Assembly: GCA_018003015.1 (NCBI GenBank)
Contig: JAGNEZ010000064.1
Coordinates: 1-32,881 of the forward strand
Direction: 5' to 3'
Source of the DNA: Phycisphaerae bacterium
GTDB lineage: Bacteria; Planctomycetota; Phycisphaerae; UBA1845; PWPN01
Length of the DNA stretch: 32,881 nucleotides
In this document: positions 2 through 6,706 of the stretch, piece by piece
Numbering within the stretch: the first letter of the stretch is position 1
Layout of the letters: every line of letters starts with the position of its first letter
Notes under the pieces: generated by a model
The model's database searches: none
Told to the model about the DNA's origin: nothing
What the model saw: the letters and a program-made list of their open reading frames with translations, nothing else
Program-made: the position numbers and the translations under genes

Positions 2-940
2 CGACTGCCCCTGCAGGAAACGGACGCGGCCATGGAGACTATACTCCTCCGCCATATCCTGAACGCTGAGCTGCTCGACCGCGCGGTCGTCCTGGCCTTC
101 GATCAGTACCACAACACCGACGGACAAGCCGTCGGAGCCCGCCCAAACCGCTCCGCCATCGGCAGCGATCTGTACCTGTCCAATACCTACGTGCGCGGTC
201 TGTGGCAGCGCTACCCTCGCCGAATCCTGTTCGGTGCGTCAATCCACCCCTACCGCCGGCTCGGCGCCATGACCGCCGCAGACATGCTGACCGAGGTGGC
301 CGCGGCCGGGGCCGTGCTCGTCAAGTGGCTGCCGCAAACACAGAACATCGATTCGCAGGATCCGCGCACCGTGGCGTTCCTCCGCCAGGCTGCGAAACTG
401 GGGATCCCCCTGCTCGTACACTTCGGCCCGGAGTACACCCTCGGCCATCACCACAAGCAGTTCGCCAACCCAGCGGGCATGCTCCAAACACTCCGGCAAC
501 TGCGCGATGATGGAGATATGCCCACGGTCATCGTCGCCCACCTCGCAACACCCTCGATGTGGCCCGTTGCCCTGGCAACCCGCCCCCACCGGATCCTGAT
601 CGAGGCCCTGGCCGGCGAGTTCGCCAGCGCCCCCCTCTATGCCGATATCGCCGCCTTGACCATGTTCAGCAAGGCCCGATGGCTCAAACGCACATTGCGA
701 ATTCCAGCAGTCCGTGCGAAACTGGTCCATGGCAGCGATTTTCCGATACCTTCGAGCCCCTTGTTCTTCCGGTCGGCCCTGGGGAAGGAGTACCACCGCG
801 TCCGCCAAATGCCCTCCTGGCTCGATCGCGACGTGGCGATCAAGTCAGCCGCCGGCATGGGCGAGGACGTGCTTCGACGCGGCGGCGAGTTGCTGGCAAG
901 CCGCATCAGGGCTGCGGACGCCTTGGCAGGCATCGTTTGA
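2..940 (+). CDS. Amidohydrolase-type TIM-barrel metal-dependent hydrolase, 5' truncated by window edge
   Basis: The frame is open to the left edge with no stop, so the start probably lies outside the window; the first ATG inside is at 32. Metal-dependent hydrolases of this kind (amidohydrolase_2-like) begin with a DxHxH strand-1 motif. None is visible here, which fits loss of the N-terminus. Visible barrel-strand signatures are FGASIHPY, an LVKWLPQTQNID strand with a Lys, LLVHFGPE, VIVAHLATP and the C-terminal metal-ligand strand HGSDFPIP, all in the right order. The substrate cannot be deduced. The gene ends 20 bases before gcvT on the same strand and is probably cotranscribed with the glycine cleavage genes. 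It could be either the first gene of that operon or the last gene of an upstream unit. Confidence 0.72.
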   Translation, partial: RLPLQETDAAMETILLRHILNAELLDRAVVLAFDQYHNTDGQAVGARPNRSAIGSDLYLSNTYVRGLWQRYPRRILFGASIHPYRRLGAMTAADMLTEVAAAGAVLVKWLPQTQNIDSQDPRTVAFLRQAAKLGIPLLVHFGPEYTLGHHHKQFANPAGMLQTLRQLRDDGDMPTVIVAHLATPSMWPVALATRPHRILIEALAGEFASAPLYADIAALTMFSKARWLKRTLRIPAVRAKLVHGSDFPIPSSPLFFRSALGKEYHRVRQMPSWLDRDVAIKSAAGMGEDVLRRGGELLASRIRAADALAGIV

Positions 941-960: not shown

Positions 961-2055
961 ATGGTTTCACCCGTGAAAAGAACACCACTATACGACTACC
1001 ATGTGCAACAGGGCGCCCGAATCGTAGACTTCGCGGGCTGGGACATGCCCCTGCTCTACGCGGGCATCGTCGAAGAGCACCTGCATACCCGCCGCATAGG
1101 CTCAGTCTTCGATGTCTCCCACATGGGACGAATCGAGTTCCGGGGATCCGACACGGAAGCCCTTCTCCAGAAGGTCTGCACCCGCCAGCTGCATGACGCC
1201 CAGGTCGGCCAGTCCCGCTACAGCCACGTCTGTGACCAGAATGGCGGCATCCTCGATGACGTTATCGTCTCTCGGTACGACGACTACTGGTTCATGGTCT
1301 GCAACGCCTGCAACCACGACCGGATCGTGTCTTGGCTCCAACAACACACAACCGGCAAGGACGTCGAGATCAAGGATGTCACCGAATCCACACTCATGAT
1401 CGCCATCCAGGGCCCCGCCGTCCTCCCGAAACTCGCCCCGAAACTGCCGTTCCCGCTGAACGAACTAAAGAGATACCGATTCACGTCCGGCACTTTCATG
1501 ATGACCCCCTACTCCATCTTCCGCAGCGGCTACACCGGCGAAGACGGCGTCGAGGTGATCCTGCCGGCCTCGATCGGCCCCCTGCTCATCGGCGCAGTGG
1601 CCGGGCTGGCCCAGGGAGAAGATGCCCTCAAACCAGCCGGACTCGGCGCTCGCGATACGCTCCGGATCGAGGCCGGCATGCCCCTCTACGGCCACGAGTT
1701 GACCGAAGAGACCGACTCCCTGTCAGCTGGCCTGGCCTGGTGCGTCGATCTCAAAAAGGACTTCATCGGTGCGGCCAGGCTCCGCGAAATCGCCAAGAAC
1801 GGTTCCAAACACAAGCTCGTCGGACTCGAACTGACCAGCAAGCGAATCGCCCGCCAAGGCACACCCGTCTGCAGCGGCAGCCGCGCGGTCGGCACAGTCA
1901 CCAGCGGAACCATGTCCCCGACCTTGGGCAAGAGCATCGCCATGGCCTACGTGGACAGCGCCTTATCCAGCACGGGCCAGAAACTAGGCGTGGACCTGGG
2001 CGGCAAGACCATCGACGCCGTCGTGGTTCCCATTCCGTTCTACAAGAAACCATAA
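961..2055 (+). CDS. gcvT: Glycine cleavage system T-protein (aminomethyltransferase)
   Basis: 364 aa. GcvT transfers the methylene carbon from aminomethyl-lipoyl H-protein to tetrahydrofolate, releasing ammonia. Family signatures are all present: FAGWDMP near residue 24, DVSHMG at 51-56, NGGILDDVIV, SGYTGEDG in the folate-binding core, LGARDTLRIEAGMPLYGHEL, and the C-terminal barrel motif TSGTMSPTLGKSIA. Length is normal for the family. The frame runs open upstream inside the preceding gene, but the ATG at 961 has a purine-rich AGAGGA ribosome binding site at about 951-956 and gives the canonical start (TPLYDYHVQQGARIVDFAGW-type). It is followed 34 bases later by gcvH. No glycine riboswitch can be placed upstream, because only 20 bases separate it from the preceding gene. 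Confidence 0.97.
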   Translation: MVSPVKRTPLYDYHVQQGARIVDFAGWDMPLLYAGIVEEHLHTRRIGSVFDVSHMGRIEFRGSDTEALLQKVCTRQLHDAQVGQSRYSHVCDQNGGILDDVIVSRYDDYWFMVCNACNHDRIVSWLQQHTTGKDVEIKDVTESTLMIAIQGPAVLPKLAPKLPFPLNELKRYRFTSGTFMMTPYSIFRSGYTGEDGVEVILPASIGPLLIGAVAGLAQGEDALKPAGLGARDTLRIEAGMPLYGHELTEETDSLSAGLAWCVDLKKDFIGAARLREIAKNGSKHKLVGLELTSKRIARQGTPVCSGSRAVGTVTSGTMSPTLGKSIAMAYVDSALSSTGQKLGVDLGGKTIDAVVVPIPFYKKP

Positions 2056-2089: not shown

Positions 2090-2476
2090 GTGAGTGCCAA
2101 CCCGGCTGATCGCAAGTACAGCAAAACGCATGAGTGGTTCGCGGCCGCGGGTAACGTGGTCACAGTCGGAATCACCAAGTTCGCCGCCGACCAGTTGACG
2201 GACATCACCTTCGTGGACCTGCCCCCGGTGGGCACCAAAGTCAACGCGGGTAAGCCCTTCGGCGAAATCGAATCCGTGAAGGCCACCGGCGAGTTGGTGT
2301 CGTATGTCACCGGCGAGGTGATCGAAACCAACACCGCCCTGGCCGACCAGCCCGGACTGGTCAACACGGATTCGTTCGGCGGCGGCTGGATGATCAAGGT
2401 CAAGGTGGCCGACCTCTCGGCCCTGAAGGCCCTGATGGACAGCCCCGCCTACGAGGCCATGCTCCAGGAGGGATGA
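2090..2476 (+). CDS. gcvH: Glycine cleavage system H-protein (lipoyl carrier)
   Basis: 128 aa. It shuttles the aminomethyl group from the P-protein to the T-protein on a lipoyl arm. The lipoyl-accepting lysine is K64 in the motif GEIESVKA. The KYSKTHEWF N-terminus and the IT.FAADQLTDITFVDLP segment are typical. The start is GTG at 2090, preceded by a strong TAAGGAGA site at 2073-2080, about ten bases away. The C-terminal glycine-rich segment FGGGWMIKVK is conserved. It lies between gcvT and gcvPA in the operon. The lipoyl group is probably attached through the LipM-like transferase encoded at 5957-6706. Confidence 0.97.
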   Translation: MSANPADRKYSKTHEWFAAAGNVVTVGITKFAADQLTDITFVDLPPVGTKVNAGKPFGEIESVKATGELVSYVTGEVIETNTALADQPGLVNTDSFGGGWMIKVKVADLSALKALMDSPAYEAMLQEG

Positions 2477-2576: not shown

Positions 2577-3914
2577 ATGAACTACCTTCAACTGACGGAC
2601 AACGACGTGCAGCACATGCTCTCGACCATTGGCGTCGGGCGAGTGGACGACCTCTTCCGGGACATCCCCCCGAGCCTGCGGCTCAACCGCCCCCTCCAGC
2701 TACCCGAACCGCTCGACGAACTCTCCCTCCTGGCCGAGCTCGAACGTATGGCTAAGGCCAATCACACCTGCGATGAGCTGGTCTGCTTTCTGGGCGGCGG
2801 CTCCTACGACCACTTCATTCCCACCGTGGTCGATTCACTGGCCGGCCAGAGCGAGTTCGTGACCGCCTACACCCCCTACCAGGCTGAGGCCTCCCAGGGC
2901 GCCCTCCAGGCTTTCTACGAGTACCAGACCCTGATCTGCCAACTGACCGGCATGGACGTGTCCAATGCCTCACTCTACGAGGGCGCAACCGCCGTGGCCG
3001 AGGCGGTCCTCATCGCCCGATCAAGCACCGGACGACGACGGGTCGTTGTCTCCGCGGCGGTGCATCCCGATACCCGCGGCGTTCTGGCAACCTACCTCCG
3101 CGAACTGCCCATCGATCTGGTACCCATCGAAACCGCCGGCGGCCTGTCCAGCCCCGATGATCTCCGGCGGGCAGTGGATGATCAGACGGCCGCGGTCGTG
3201 ATCCAGACACCGAATGTCTTCGGATGCGTCGAGCGGCTCGATCGCCTCAGCGCCATCGCCCATGAGCGCGGCGCGGTGGTCGTTGCGGCAGTCGACCCGA
3301 TTTCCTGCGCCCTGCTCAAGTCGCCAGGCACCCTGGGCGCCGACATCGCCGTCGGCGATGCCCAGCCGCTCGGCATCCCAATGTCGTTTGGCGGGCCCTC
3401 GGCCGGCTTCATGGCCTGCAAGCAGGCGTTCATGCGCAAGATGCCCGGCCGGCTCATCGGCGCGACCACCGACGAGGCCGGACGTCGAGCCTTCTGCCTG
3501 ACGCTCCAGACCCGCGAGCAACACATCCGCCGCGAGCGGGCCACGAGCAACATCTGCACCAACCAGGGACTCTACGCCCTTCGTGTGGCCATCTACCTCT
3601 CGGCGGTCGGTCGGCAAGGCGCGGCCAGAGTCGCCTCGCTTTGCCTCGACAAGTCACATTACGCCGCAGAACGGATCGCCGGCCTCAAGGGCTTCGAGTT
3701 GCGATTCCAGGCGCCGTTCTTCAAGGAATTCGTCGTCCGAACAACCAAGGACGTCAAGCGGGTCCTGGCCCACGCCCGCAAACGCGGGCTCCTGGCCGGC
3801 GTACCCCTCGAACCCTGGTACGACCACCTGGCAGACTGCTTCCTGGTGGCCGTTACGGAAAAACGCTCCCGCGAACAGATCGACGCTCTGGTCGCAGCTC
3901 TCGATGAGTCATGA
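2577..3914 (+). CDS. gcvPA: Glycine dehydrogenase (decarboxylating) subunit 1, P-protein alpha
   Basis: 445 aa, the normal length for the split-type P-protein alpha subunit. With GcvPB it forms the PLP enzyme that decarboxylates glycine and loads the aminomethyl group on GcvH. Typical stretches are FLGGGSYDHFIPTVVDSL, the FVTAYTPYQAEASQGALQAFYEYQT segment, NASLYEGATAVAEA, IQTPNVFG, and SNICTNQGLYAL near the C-terminus. The ATG at 2577 follows a 100 base gap after gcvH, which is longer than the other operon gaps, but I see no convincing promoter or hairpin in it. The PLP lysine lies in the partner subunit, as expected for the two-chain form. The next gene is an unrecognised small ORF and not gcvPB directly. 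Confidence 0.96.
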   Translation: MNYLQLTDNDVQHMLSTIGVGRVDDLFRDIPPSLRLNRPLQLPEPLDELSLLAELERMAKANHTCDELVCFLGGGSYDHFIPTVVDSLAGQSEFVTAYTPYQAEASQGALQAFYEYQTLICQLTGMDVSNASLYEGATAVAEAVLIARSSTGRRRVVVSAAVHPDTRGVLATYLRELPIDLVPIETAGGLSSPDDLRRAVDDQTAAVVIQTPNVFGCVERLDRLSAIAHERGAVVVAAVDPISCALLKSPGTLGADIAVGDAQPLGIPMSFGGPSAGFMACKQAFMRKMPGRLIGATTDEAGRRAFCLTLQTREQHIRRERATSNICTNQGLYALRVAIYLSAVGRQGAARVASLCLDKSHYAAERIAGLKGFELRFQAPFFKEFVVRTTKDVKRVLAHARKRGLLAGVPLEPWYDHLADCFLVAVTEKRSREQIDALVAALDES

Positions 3915-3942
3915 GCCCGGAGCGACGCTGAGGAACAAGGAC

Positions 3943-4326
3943 GTGGGTTACGACGTTGAGTTTGTCCAGATACCGGTAGACTCGTCTACGACCTTCCCCG
4001 TCGCGCCCGAAGCGGCTAGGCGGCTACGCAAGAACGCGGTGCCCTTCCGCGATCCGGCGGCGGTCAGCAGTCTGCTGCTGCAAATGGACGGGGCCAAACC
4101 AGCCCTCGATGACGGAATCGACTACCTGGGCAAGGGACTCAGCTATGCCCGGCTGTTCGTTCGCCAGGACGCGATCCATGTGGATAACAATCTCAACGGA
4201 GCGGAATTGCTCAAACTCTACGCCAAACTGAATGATCGCTACCGGCAACTGCTGATTCTGGATCTTCAGAGCGGCCAGCTGCATGACGCAGCCAGCTACA
4301 AGGAGTGGTGGTCCCGACCACTGTGA
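3943..4326 (+). CDS. Unknown small protein embedded between gcvPA and gcvPB
   Basis: 127 aa from GTG 3943, which has GAGGA at 3930-3934 eight bases upstream. An alternative in-frame ATG at 3904 overlaps the end of gcvPA and would add 13 residues, but it has no ribosome binding site. I do not recognise the family. No signal peptide, membrane segment or cysteine motif is visible; the protein looks soluble and mixed alpha/beta. Notable stretches are FVQIPVDSSTTFPV near the N-terminus, GIDYLGKGLSYARLFV in the middle and LLILDLQSGQLHD near the C-terminus. The stop is four bases before the gcvPB start, so it is tightly embedded and probably translationally coupled to it. Position suggests a role with the P-protein or C1/glycine metabolism, but this is inference from location only. 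Confidence 0.8.
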   Translation: MGYDVEFVQIPVDSSTTFPVAPEAARRLRKNAVPFRDPAAVSSLLLQMDGAKPALDDGIDYLGKGLSYARLFVRQDAIHVDNNLNGAELLKLYAKLNDRYRQLLILDLQSGQLHDAASYKEWWSRPL

Positions 4327-4330
4327 TCTC

Positions 4331-5893
4331 ATGGTTCACCAAGCCAATACAGCCAACGCCCTGTCCGCCAACCCCCTGTCCGGAGCAGGCCTCGTCCCCT
4401 CCGAGAAGCTCATCTTCGAGCGAAGCACACCCGGCCTGACCGCGGTTTCACTGCCCCCCACCGATGTCCCTCCGGTGGACAGGGAGAAGGCCATCCCCCG
4501 CGAATTGCTGGCCGACTCCGCCCCCCTGCTGCCCGAAGTCGGCGAACTGGACCTCGTTCGCCACTACACCCGGCTCGCCCATCGCCTCTTCAGCGTCGAC
4601 GGCAACTTCTATCCGCTCGGCTCCTGCACCATGAAGTACAACCCGAAGATCAACGAGCGAGCGGCGGCCATGCCCGGATTCACCGCCCTGCATCCCCTCC
4701 AGCAAGAGGTGGACATTCAGGGCATCATGGAGCTGCTCTATCATACCCGCATCTTCCTGGCCGAAATCGCCGGCCTGGCCGACGTGACCCTGCAGCCCTG
4801 CGCCGGAGCCCACGGCGAGATGACAGGCGTCATGATCATCAGCGCCTACCACCGCCACCACGGCCAGGACCGGCCCAAGGTCCTCACCCCGGACTCGGCC
4901 CACGGAACCAACCCGGCCACTTGTACTATGTGCGGCCGGCACGCCCTGACCGTGTCATCACGACCCGACGGCAGGGTCGACCTCAACGACCTGCGCAGCA
5001 AGGTGGACGAACAAACCGCCGCCTTGATGATCACCAACCCCAACACAACCGGCCTGTTCGACCCCCAGATCGCCAACATCGCCGAGATCCTGCACGCCAA
5101 GGGCGCCCTCCTTTACCTCGACGGGGCCAACATGAATGCCATCCTCGGTATCGCCCGCCCCGGCGACTTCGGGGTCGATGTCATGCACTTCAATGTGCAC
5201 AAGACATTCAGCACCCCTCACGGTTGCGGCGGCCCGGGCGCCGGCCCAGTGGCCGTCTCCGAGAAGCTCCGCGGCTTCCTGCCCGGACCACAGGTTATCC
5301 GCCGGGCGGATGGAACCTATGGATGGGATTCGATGGGGAAAAGTTCTATCGGACGGGTGCGGTCGTTCCACGGTCAAATCGGTGTCCTGGTGCGAACCTT
5401 CGCCTACATCAGGGCCCTCGGAGCTGCCGGCCTGCGCGGCGTCAGCGAGAAGGCCGTACTCTCCGCCAACTACATCGCCGCCCGCCTGCGCGGCCACTAC
5501 GCCATGCCCTTCGAGCCCCCCTATGCCCACGAGTTCATCACCGTGCCCGAGTTCCGCGATCGCGGCGTCACCGAGTTGGACATCTCCAAGCGGCTCATCG
5601 ACCATTCGTTCCATCCGCCAACCATGAGCTGGCCGGTAGCCCACTGCCTCATGATCGAACCGACAGAGACGGAATCGCTGGCCACCCTCGATCAATTCAT
5701 CGAGGCCATGATCAGCATCGCCCGGGAAGCTCGGGAAAACCCCGATATCCTCCACCATGCCCCCCACACCATGCCCGTACGGCGACTCGACGAGGTCACC
5801 GCAGCCCGCAAGCCCGACCTGTGCTGGCAACCGGAGTCCCCCTCGACATCCCCCGCCCCATCGCCCGTCGCCGAACGTGCCCCGGTCTCGTAG
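4331..5893 (+). CDS. gcvPB: Glycine dehydrogenase (decarboxylating) subunit 2, P-protein beta
   Basis: 520 aa. It carries the PLP cofactor of the two-chain glycine decarboxylase; the Schiff-base lysine is K291 in HFNVHKTFSTPHGCGGPG. Other signatures are LIFERSTPG, the YPLGSCTMKYNPKINE stretch, LQPCAGAHGEMTG, DSAHGTNPAT and TNPNTTGLFD. The ATG at 4331, four bases after the previous stop, gives the usual N-terminus. An in-frame ATG at 4283 would overlap the preceding gene; neither has a good Shine-Dalgarno sequence, so translation probably depends on coupling. The inverted repeat GTGGTC-CC-GACCAC at 4308-4321 lies just before the start. The C-terminus has about 25 extra Pro/Ser-rich residues beyond the conserved domain. 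Confidence 0.96.
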   Translation: MVHQANTANALSANPLSGAGLVPSEKLIFERSTPGLTAVSLPPTDVPPVDREKAIPRELLADSAPLLPEVGELDLVRHYTRLAHRLFSVDGNFYPLGSCTMKYNPKINERAAAMPGFTALHPLQQEVDIQGIMELLYHTRIFLAEIAGLADVTLQPCAGAHGEMTGVMIISAYHRHHGQDRPKVLTPDSAHGTNPATCTMCGRHALTVSSRPDGRVDLNDLRSKVDEQTAALMITNPNTTGLFDPQIANIAEILHAKGALLYLDGANMNAILGIARPGDFGVDVMHFNVHKTFSTPHGCGGPGAGPVAVSEKLRGFLPGPQVIRRADGTYGWDSMGKSSIGRVRSFHGQIGVLVRTFAYIRALGAAGLRGVSEKAVLSANYIAARLRGHYAMPFEPPYAHEFITVPEFRDRGVTELDISKRLIDHSFHPPTMSWPVAHCLMIEPTETESLATLDQFIEAMISIAREARENPDILHHAPHTMPVRRLDEVTAARKPDLCWQPESPSTSPAPSPVAERAPVS

Positions 5894-5956
5894 AATGCCG
5901 GCAGAGACCGCCGGTCACCGCGATGGTGACATCCGCAAACTGGGGTGACCCGAGCA

Positions 5957-6706
5957 ATGGACCAAGCCGCATCAACAGTCCGCTGGCTGACAGATCCGCC
6001 CCTGGACGGGCCCGCGAACATGGCCCGCGACGAAGCCCTGCTCCAGCGGGTGGGCGCCGGCCAGTCGCCCCCGACGCTTCGCTTCTACCACTGGTCACCG
6101 GCCACGATCTCCATGGGCTACTTCCAGCCCTACCAGGACTTCGCATCCCTGCCTCCGCCGGCCGGTACCCTACCCGTCGTGCGCCGGCAGACCGGCGGCG
6201 GGGCCATCCTCCATGACCAGGAACTGACCTACTCACTCACCTTGCCGCTGGACCATCCCCTGATCGGCAAGGGCAATGCGAACGGCCTCTATGACCGCGT
6301 CCACGAAGGCTTTGCCGCCGTGCTCGGCTACCTCGGAATCGCCGTGTCACGCGGTGCCGCAACAGGTGCCTGCTCCCATCGCGGCCCCTTCTTCTGCTTC
6401 GAGCGACACAGCTGCTTCGACTTGATCGTGAACGGCCGCAAGATCCTGGGCAGCGCCCAGCGACGCACCAACCACGCAGTCCTCCAGCACGGCTCGCTGG
6501 TTCTGGGCCGCCGGTACGAGCAACAGCCGTGCGCGGCCGTGGCCGACTACTGTTCCGTTGCCATGGACTGCTACCTGGATCGACTGGCGAGCGCCATCCT
6601 GCAGGAGTACACCGGCCTTCAGGACCCGCTCGTGCCCGGGGAACTGGCCCTGGCCGACCAGCTTCGCGGCAAATACGAGGACCCGGCCTGGACTCGAAAA
6701 CGTTGA
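5957..6706 (+). CDS. lipM: Lipoyl/octanoyl transferase, LipM-like
   Basis: 249 aa from ATG 5957 (GTG 5945 is an in-frame alternative, four residues longer). It is a biotin/lipoate protein ligase-fold enzyme. Visible motifs are NMARDEALL, the RRQTGGGAILHD loop, ELTYSL, and GRKILGSAQRR with the conserved lysine (about K162), followed by LQHGSL. A cysteine in FFCFERHSCFDL (about C147) aligns with the catalytic cysteine of LipM octanoyltransferases, which favours octanoyl transfer from octanoyl-ACP over ATP-dependent lipoate ligation. It follows gcvPB by 63 bases and probably serves GcvH. A lipoate ligase A-like role remains possible. The downstream gene overlaps its stop codon. Confidence 0.85.
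   Translation: MDQAASTVRWLTDPPLDGPANMARDEALLQRVGAGQSPPTLRFYHWSPATISMGYFQPYQDFASLPPPAGTLPVVRRQTGGGAILHDQELTYSLTLPLDHPLIGKGNANGLYDRVHEGFAAVLGYLGIAVSRGAATGACSHRGPFFCFERHSCFDLIVNGRKILGSAQRRTNHAVLQHGSLVLGRRYEQQPCAAVADYCSVAMDCYLDRLASAILQEYTGLQDPLVPGELALADQLRGKYEDPAWTRKR

Follow-up and report, generated by a model that had tools for sequence, protein, structure and literature searches.

The glycine cleavage operon of a Phycisphaerae bacterium (contig JAGNEZ010000064.1, 32,881 nucleotides, called the window below) raises the question of what a small gene between gcvPA and gcvPB does, and whether its product serves the split P-protein that these two genes encode. The gene, designated X here, and its neighbours are arranged as follows:

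32..940, plus strand: amidohydrolase-like gene (Pfam Amidohydro_2, E 9.9e-07)
961..2055, plus strand: open frame, start inferred, putative gcvT (T-protein), so named from gene order
2090..2476, plus strand: gcvH, H-protein (Pfam GCV_H, E 5.4e-42)
2577..3914, plus strand: gcvPA, P-protein subunit 1 (NCBIfam NF001696, 622 bits over a cut-off of 364)
3931..3934, plus strand: AGGA, which may serve X as a ribosome binding site, 8 bases ahead of its start codon (from the sequence)
3943..4326, plus strand: X, protein of 127 aa with a predicted SirA/ZipA-type alpha/beta fold (frame, orthologues and fold model)
4331..5893, plus strand: gcvPB, P-protein subunit 2 (NCBIfam NF003346, 673 bits over a cut-off of 441)
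5945..6706, plus strand: lipoate-protein ligase A/B family gene (Pfam LplA-B_cat, E 1.5e-26)

The amidohydrolase-like gene is the upstream neighbour in some relatives as well, and the lipoate-protein ligase gene follows gcvPB in most of them. No glycine riboswitch or other Rfam RNA was found in the window. A literature search returned no paper on planctomycete gcv operons; the gcv papers listed concerned other bacteria.

In the first-pass annotation the frame of X was described as complete, native and provided with its own ribosome binding site. The frame was confirmed, from GTG 3943 to TGA 4326, with its start 28 bases after the gcvPA stop (3914) and its stop 4 bases 5′ of the likely gcvPB start (ATG 4331), and the AGGA listed above is a possible binding site. 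The residues M-G-Y-D open all 11 orthologues at the same codon (GTG in nine, ATG in two), and the start is confirmed because both its position and this motif are kept throughout. Long chance frames are plentiful in GC-rich genomes, 54 frames of at least 60 aa being counted here in 9 kb, and X might be taken for one of them. This reading is already refuted by conservation and keeps a practically negligible probability, since 11 ungapped orthologues retain start and end, the fold model is confident, and dN/dS against a genus-mate is 0.148, a value resting on few changes (15 synonymous, 7 non-synonymous). For gcvPA, gcvPB and gcvH, the same genus-mate gives 0.059, 0.115 and 0.122. The claimed match in codon style holds only roughly, as GC3 is 0.72 in X versus 0.81-0.87 in gcvPA, gcvPB and gcvH. 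Judged by sequence comparison, X is a real, native gene, with full-length orthologues free of indels.

The distribution of X is narrow. A profile search of the order detected it in 11 of 114 genomes, all 11 among the 13 that belong to the same taxonomic family as the window and none in the other 101, so that the frame proved to be conserved in relatives, a point on which the first-pass annotation had let its reading depend. A protein search of 61 relatives yielded strong orthologues (E 3e-30 or better) solely within this family. Outside it, nothing passed 0.01 when 397 genomes sampled from the class and 392 sampled from the phylum were searched. Weaker matches at 0.017-0.055 in these samples were judged to be chance; those of the phylum sample, inspected one residue at a time, span 33-65 residues within longer frames of an unrelated kind, one of them flagellin-like by eye. 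Weak matches in the relatives (E 0.01 and above) and one in the window's own genome (C7) were likewise taken as chance. Among the matches, the records that carry names are MAGs of Planctomycetota and Phycisphaerae.

All 11 orthologues are exactly 127 aa long and align without a gap at 45-94% identity, the window's own copy excluded. In the alignment 25 columns are invariant, among them those of the first four and the last two residues as well as D4, D60, R70, H79, N82, D107, Q109 and H114, and the C-terminal end carries an invariant W-W-x-x-P-L. Conservation is unevenly spread, with a mean pairwise identity of 0.34 in residues 10-46 versus 0.55 in 47-127, and with 2 of 37 invariant columns in the former versus 23 of 90 in the latter (hypergeometric 0.006). 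The median end branch is 0.46 changes per site for X and 0.11 for gcvPB; by this measure X is evolving faster than gcvPB, unlike a core subunit. Only 2 of 8 inner branches are well supported in each of the X and gcvPB trees, too few for a congruence test. X is a genuine gene of a single planctomycete family, best explained as present in one copy and inherited vertically.

The tabulation of neighbourhoods, which had been proposed along with the first-pass annotation, placed X between gcvPA and gcvPB in 10 of the 11 orthologues and elsewhere in one, that of G006. Flanking order decays beyond the operon, an rseP-like neighbour being kept in the fetched flanks of G001 and G010 and not in those of G003, G004 and G009; the position of X thus belongs to the operon and not to a long frozen block. 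X is neither always with gcvPA-gcvPB nor only with them: among the 13 family genomes, ten have gcvP and X, one has gcvP only (G005), one has X only (G006) and one has neither (G008). G005, with gcvPA and gcvPB adjacent, is the one genome without X among the 11 of the family that carry gcvPB, and this may be a secondary loss. In G006, X is followed after about 260 bases by a metallophosphoesterase gene, and the 927 bases upstream, as far as a run of N, revealed no gcvPA. No gcvP was found elsewhere in G006 either; this absence is weak evidence, as the assembly is 72% complete and contains 100-N runs. The sole GcvH-like match of G006 (59.6 bits; C1:1614216-1614521, L056) sits in an open frame of 899 aa, unlike a normal H-protein.

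These data bear on the suggestion of the first-pass annotation that X could assemble or regulate the two-part P-protein. A dedicated factor of this kind would bind GcvPA-GcvPB, assemble or stabilise it and tune glycine cleavage. The site between both subunit genes in 10 of 11 orthologues, the mere 4 bases that separate X from gcvPB within the window's genus, and the joint absence of gcvPB and X from the 90% complete G008, which fits co-loss, all speak for such a factor. It is weakened by G005, which has the enzyme without X, by G006, which has X without a detected gcvP, by the faster change of X relative to gcvPB, and by the situation outside the family, where split gcvPB scored over the cut-off in 19 genomes of the order (relatives set) and X was present in 0 of 19. 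A dedicated P-protein factor is considered unlikely. Should X bind the P-protein after all, a widespread C1 enzyme would have an accessory confined to one lineage.

Other lineages were found to hold unrelated genes at the same junction, which further weakens the case for a P-protein factor. The junctions examined were those of 13 of the 19 genomes, plus that of G005. Among the 13, six contain a membrane zinc-ribbon gene, one a Y1-transposase-like gene (G053, L069:379-990, Pfam E 3.7e-06) and six no clear gene. By coordinates, gcvPA and gcvPB appear adjacent in G024, one of the other six genomes, and lie apart in the remaining five. A decayed copy of X was looked for in the 370-base gap of G016 and not found. 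All six zinc-ribbon genes belong to the sister family f8 (L067 in G060, L068 in G042, L070 in G030, L071 in G051, L072 in G033 and L074 in G054) and encode proteins of about 90-105 aa that begin with a hydrophobic stretch and contain a cysteine zinc ribbon. They resemble X in lying between gcvPA and gcvPB, in size and in being conserved within their own family, whereas the sequence is unrelated and the hydrophobic start is, by eye, probably transmembrane. A close zinc-ribbon relative also stands beside one subunit gene in G023 and G045, two of the five genomes in which the subunits are separated, and other zinc-ribbon relatives are numerous in 22 of 22 genomes searched. The junction looks like a permissive spot, one where small genes of unrelated kinds have settled in different lineages of planctomycetes. 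Since it takes different small genes, conserved residence there is by itself no proof of a function related to the enzyme, and a position kept across a family inside a core operon need not mark a part of the enzyme.

As a side observation among the relatives analysed, families f1, f2, f5, f6 and f8 of the order carry a split glycine decarboxylase. In f4 and f7 the enzyme is mostly a single chain, the open frames measuring about 970-1090 aa, and G053 is the one split case in f7.

Sequence searches assigned X to no known family, in agreement with the first-pass annotation, which had seen no recognisable domain. Pfam gave no family, NCBIfam nothing under E 0.22, and PHROGs only matches of single members, none better than E 0.025; the best PDB match by sequence, a linked cytochrome trimer at E 0.083, is not convincing. 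By these comparisons X is undescribed in the libraries searched. Origin as a mobile or phage gene was rejected, because no relative occurs in viral contigs and the PHROGs matches are of the kind just given, and a defence gene was rejected as well, PADLOC giving a single match for one member (E 0.053). Against a viral structure library, the model of X gave nothing under E 0.001; the best match, at E 0.033, is a siphovirus protein that is itself uncharacterised.

AlphaFold2 modelled X as a single confident domain (pLDDT 92.8, pTM 0.87), and a repeat with the most diverged orthologue as query, about 46% identical to the first, reached pLDDT 92.9. The first match of both models is SirA (4tps_A; Foldseek E 8.4e-4 and 7.8e-4, probability 1.00), which is also the sole Foldseek match under 0.001 for each, with Z 10.2 (114 aligned residues, rmsd 3.0) and Z 9.8 (115 aligned, rmsd 3.2). 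The FtsZ-binding domain of ZipA is the second match of both, at Z 7.7 and 8.4, where the structure-comparison tool warns that values below 8 are common; COR, TBP-like and KA1-type domains follow. X is thus predicted to fold like SirA and like the FtsZ-binding domain of ZipA; a shared fold is no proof of function. With its clear predicted fold and a genomic context that can be tested, X represents a new, well-bounded protein family.

The likeness to SirA (PF10747, PDB 4tps) comprises size and predicted chain topology, over 114-115 of the 127 residues at an rmsd of about 3 Å and a Z of about 10, and the order of secondary-structure elements given for SirA in PMC4285326 agrees with the model. Both are orphan families confined to a single lineage, that paper stating for SirA that no significant sequence similarity exists beyond orthologues in Bacilli. 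The two differ in phylum and setting, X lying in a glycine cleavage operon and SirA acting in sporulation control, and they share only 10-11% identity with no significant sequence similarity. PF10747 matched 0 of 11 members of the X family at E 5 and nothing in the window's own genome at E 10, while the Bacillus subtilis control was detected; the X profile scored 0.2 bits against SirA, a value exceeded by 184 of 2000 shuffles. Homology to SirA by sequence was therefore rejected as not significant. The best local hhalign alignment (probability 0.4%) sets residues 65-113 on 88-136 of SirA in the register expected from the element order, a hint at kinship that is suggestive only.

ZipA carries an N-terminal membrane anchor and a linker ahead of its FtsZ-binding domain. 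X is the bare domain from residue 1 at 127 aa, without anchor or linker, and matches the ZipA domain (PDB 1f46 and others) over 101-103 residues at Z 6.8-8.4, near the level called common by the tool, with 6-10% identity.

On these grounds X could be imagined as a SirA-like regulator of replication initiation that would bind DnaA domain I and link C1 and glycine supply to replication. SirA is the top fold match of both models and a DnaA_N domain is present in the window's genome, but the PF10747 and profile searches were silent, and the chain-order counterpart of the helices by which SirA grips DnaA is the least conserved part of X. These helices lie around residues 13-52 of SirA, with the conserved contacts Phe14, Tyr18, Gln48 and Ile52 on the helical part, as described in PMC4285326; the corresponding stretch of X is shorter and variable. 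A role of this kind, predicted from the fold model, is very improbable. The same slight probability is given to the broader idea that production of X would keep pace with that of the glycine cleavage enzyme and that X would bind DnaA domain I or another cell-cycle partner; if true, X would tie replication or division to the supply of one-carbon units and glycine.

That X is a small enzyme or senses a ligand is improbable as well, if less so. The conserved polar residues would then form a site, which might take up a C1 compound or an amino acid; about a dozen of these residues could mark a ligand or active site, the eight named above are invariant in 11 of 11 orthologues, and X is co-located with C1 genes. 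No structural match to the active domain of an enzyme, however, stands above SirA and ZipA.

The explanation preferred here, which is probably correct though far from certain, is that X is a native, family-restricted, non-obligate cistron of the operon, encodes a binding protein of the SirA/ZipA type and is not required for the P-protein. X would have moved in between the genes for the two halves of glycine decarboxylase, which are translated separately, and remained there; the place appears to tolerate small extra cistrons. Its product would be a soluble, non-enzymatic binding module of 127 residues. Because residues 10-46 are the least conserved part, the conserved sheet and the C-terminal tail (residues 47-127) are the likelier surface for contact with one partner; the variable helical stretch, which corresponds in chain order to the DnaA grip of SirA, would not be the binding part. 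X would modulate this partner without being required for the P-protein. The partner might be a glycine-cleavage or lipoylation component, an assignment that is tentative and on balance unlikely, and some regulatory link to glycine cleavage is possible. The near-constant position of X would fit a functional link with the P-protein just as well.

Under this preferred explanation X is presumably co-transcribed with the gcv operon. The stop of X four bases from gcvPB, which the first-pass annotation had taken as a sign of native integration, holds only in the window's genus; the 8 other orthologues that neighbour gcvPB are separated from it by roughly 25 to 210 bases. By eye, gcvPB of the window's genus lacks an obvious ribosome site ahead of its start, so that translational coupling of gcvPB to X is plausible, and probable, there; with a gap varying from 4 to about 210 bases, tight coupling is not family-wide. 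In G002, the gap between X and gcvPB contains a palindromic GGGGACTGTCCCC-type sequence (L033:1949-2139) that resembles a scattered repeat.
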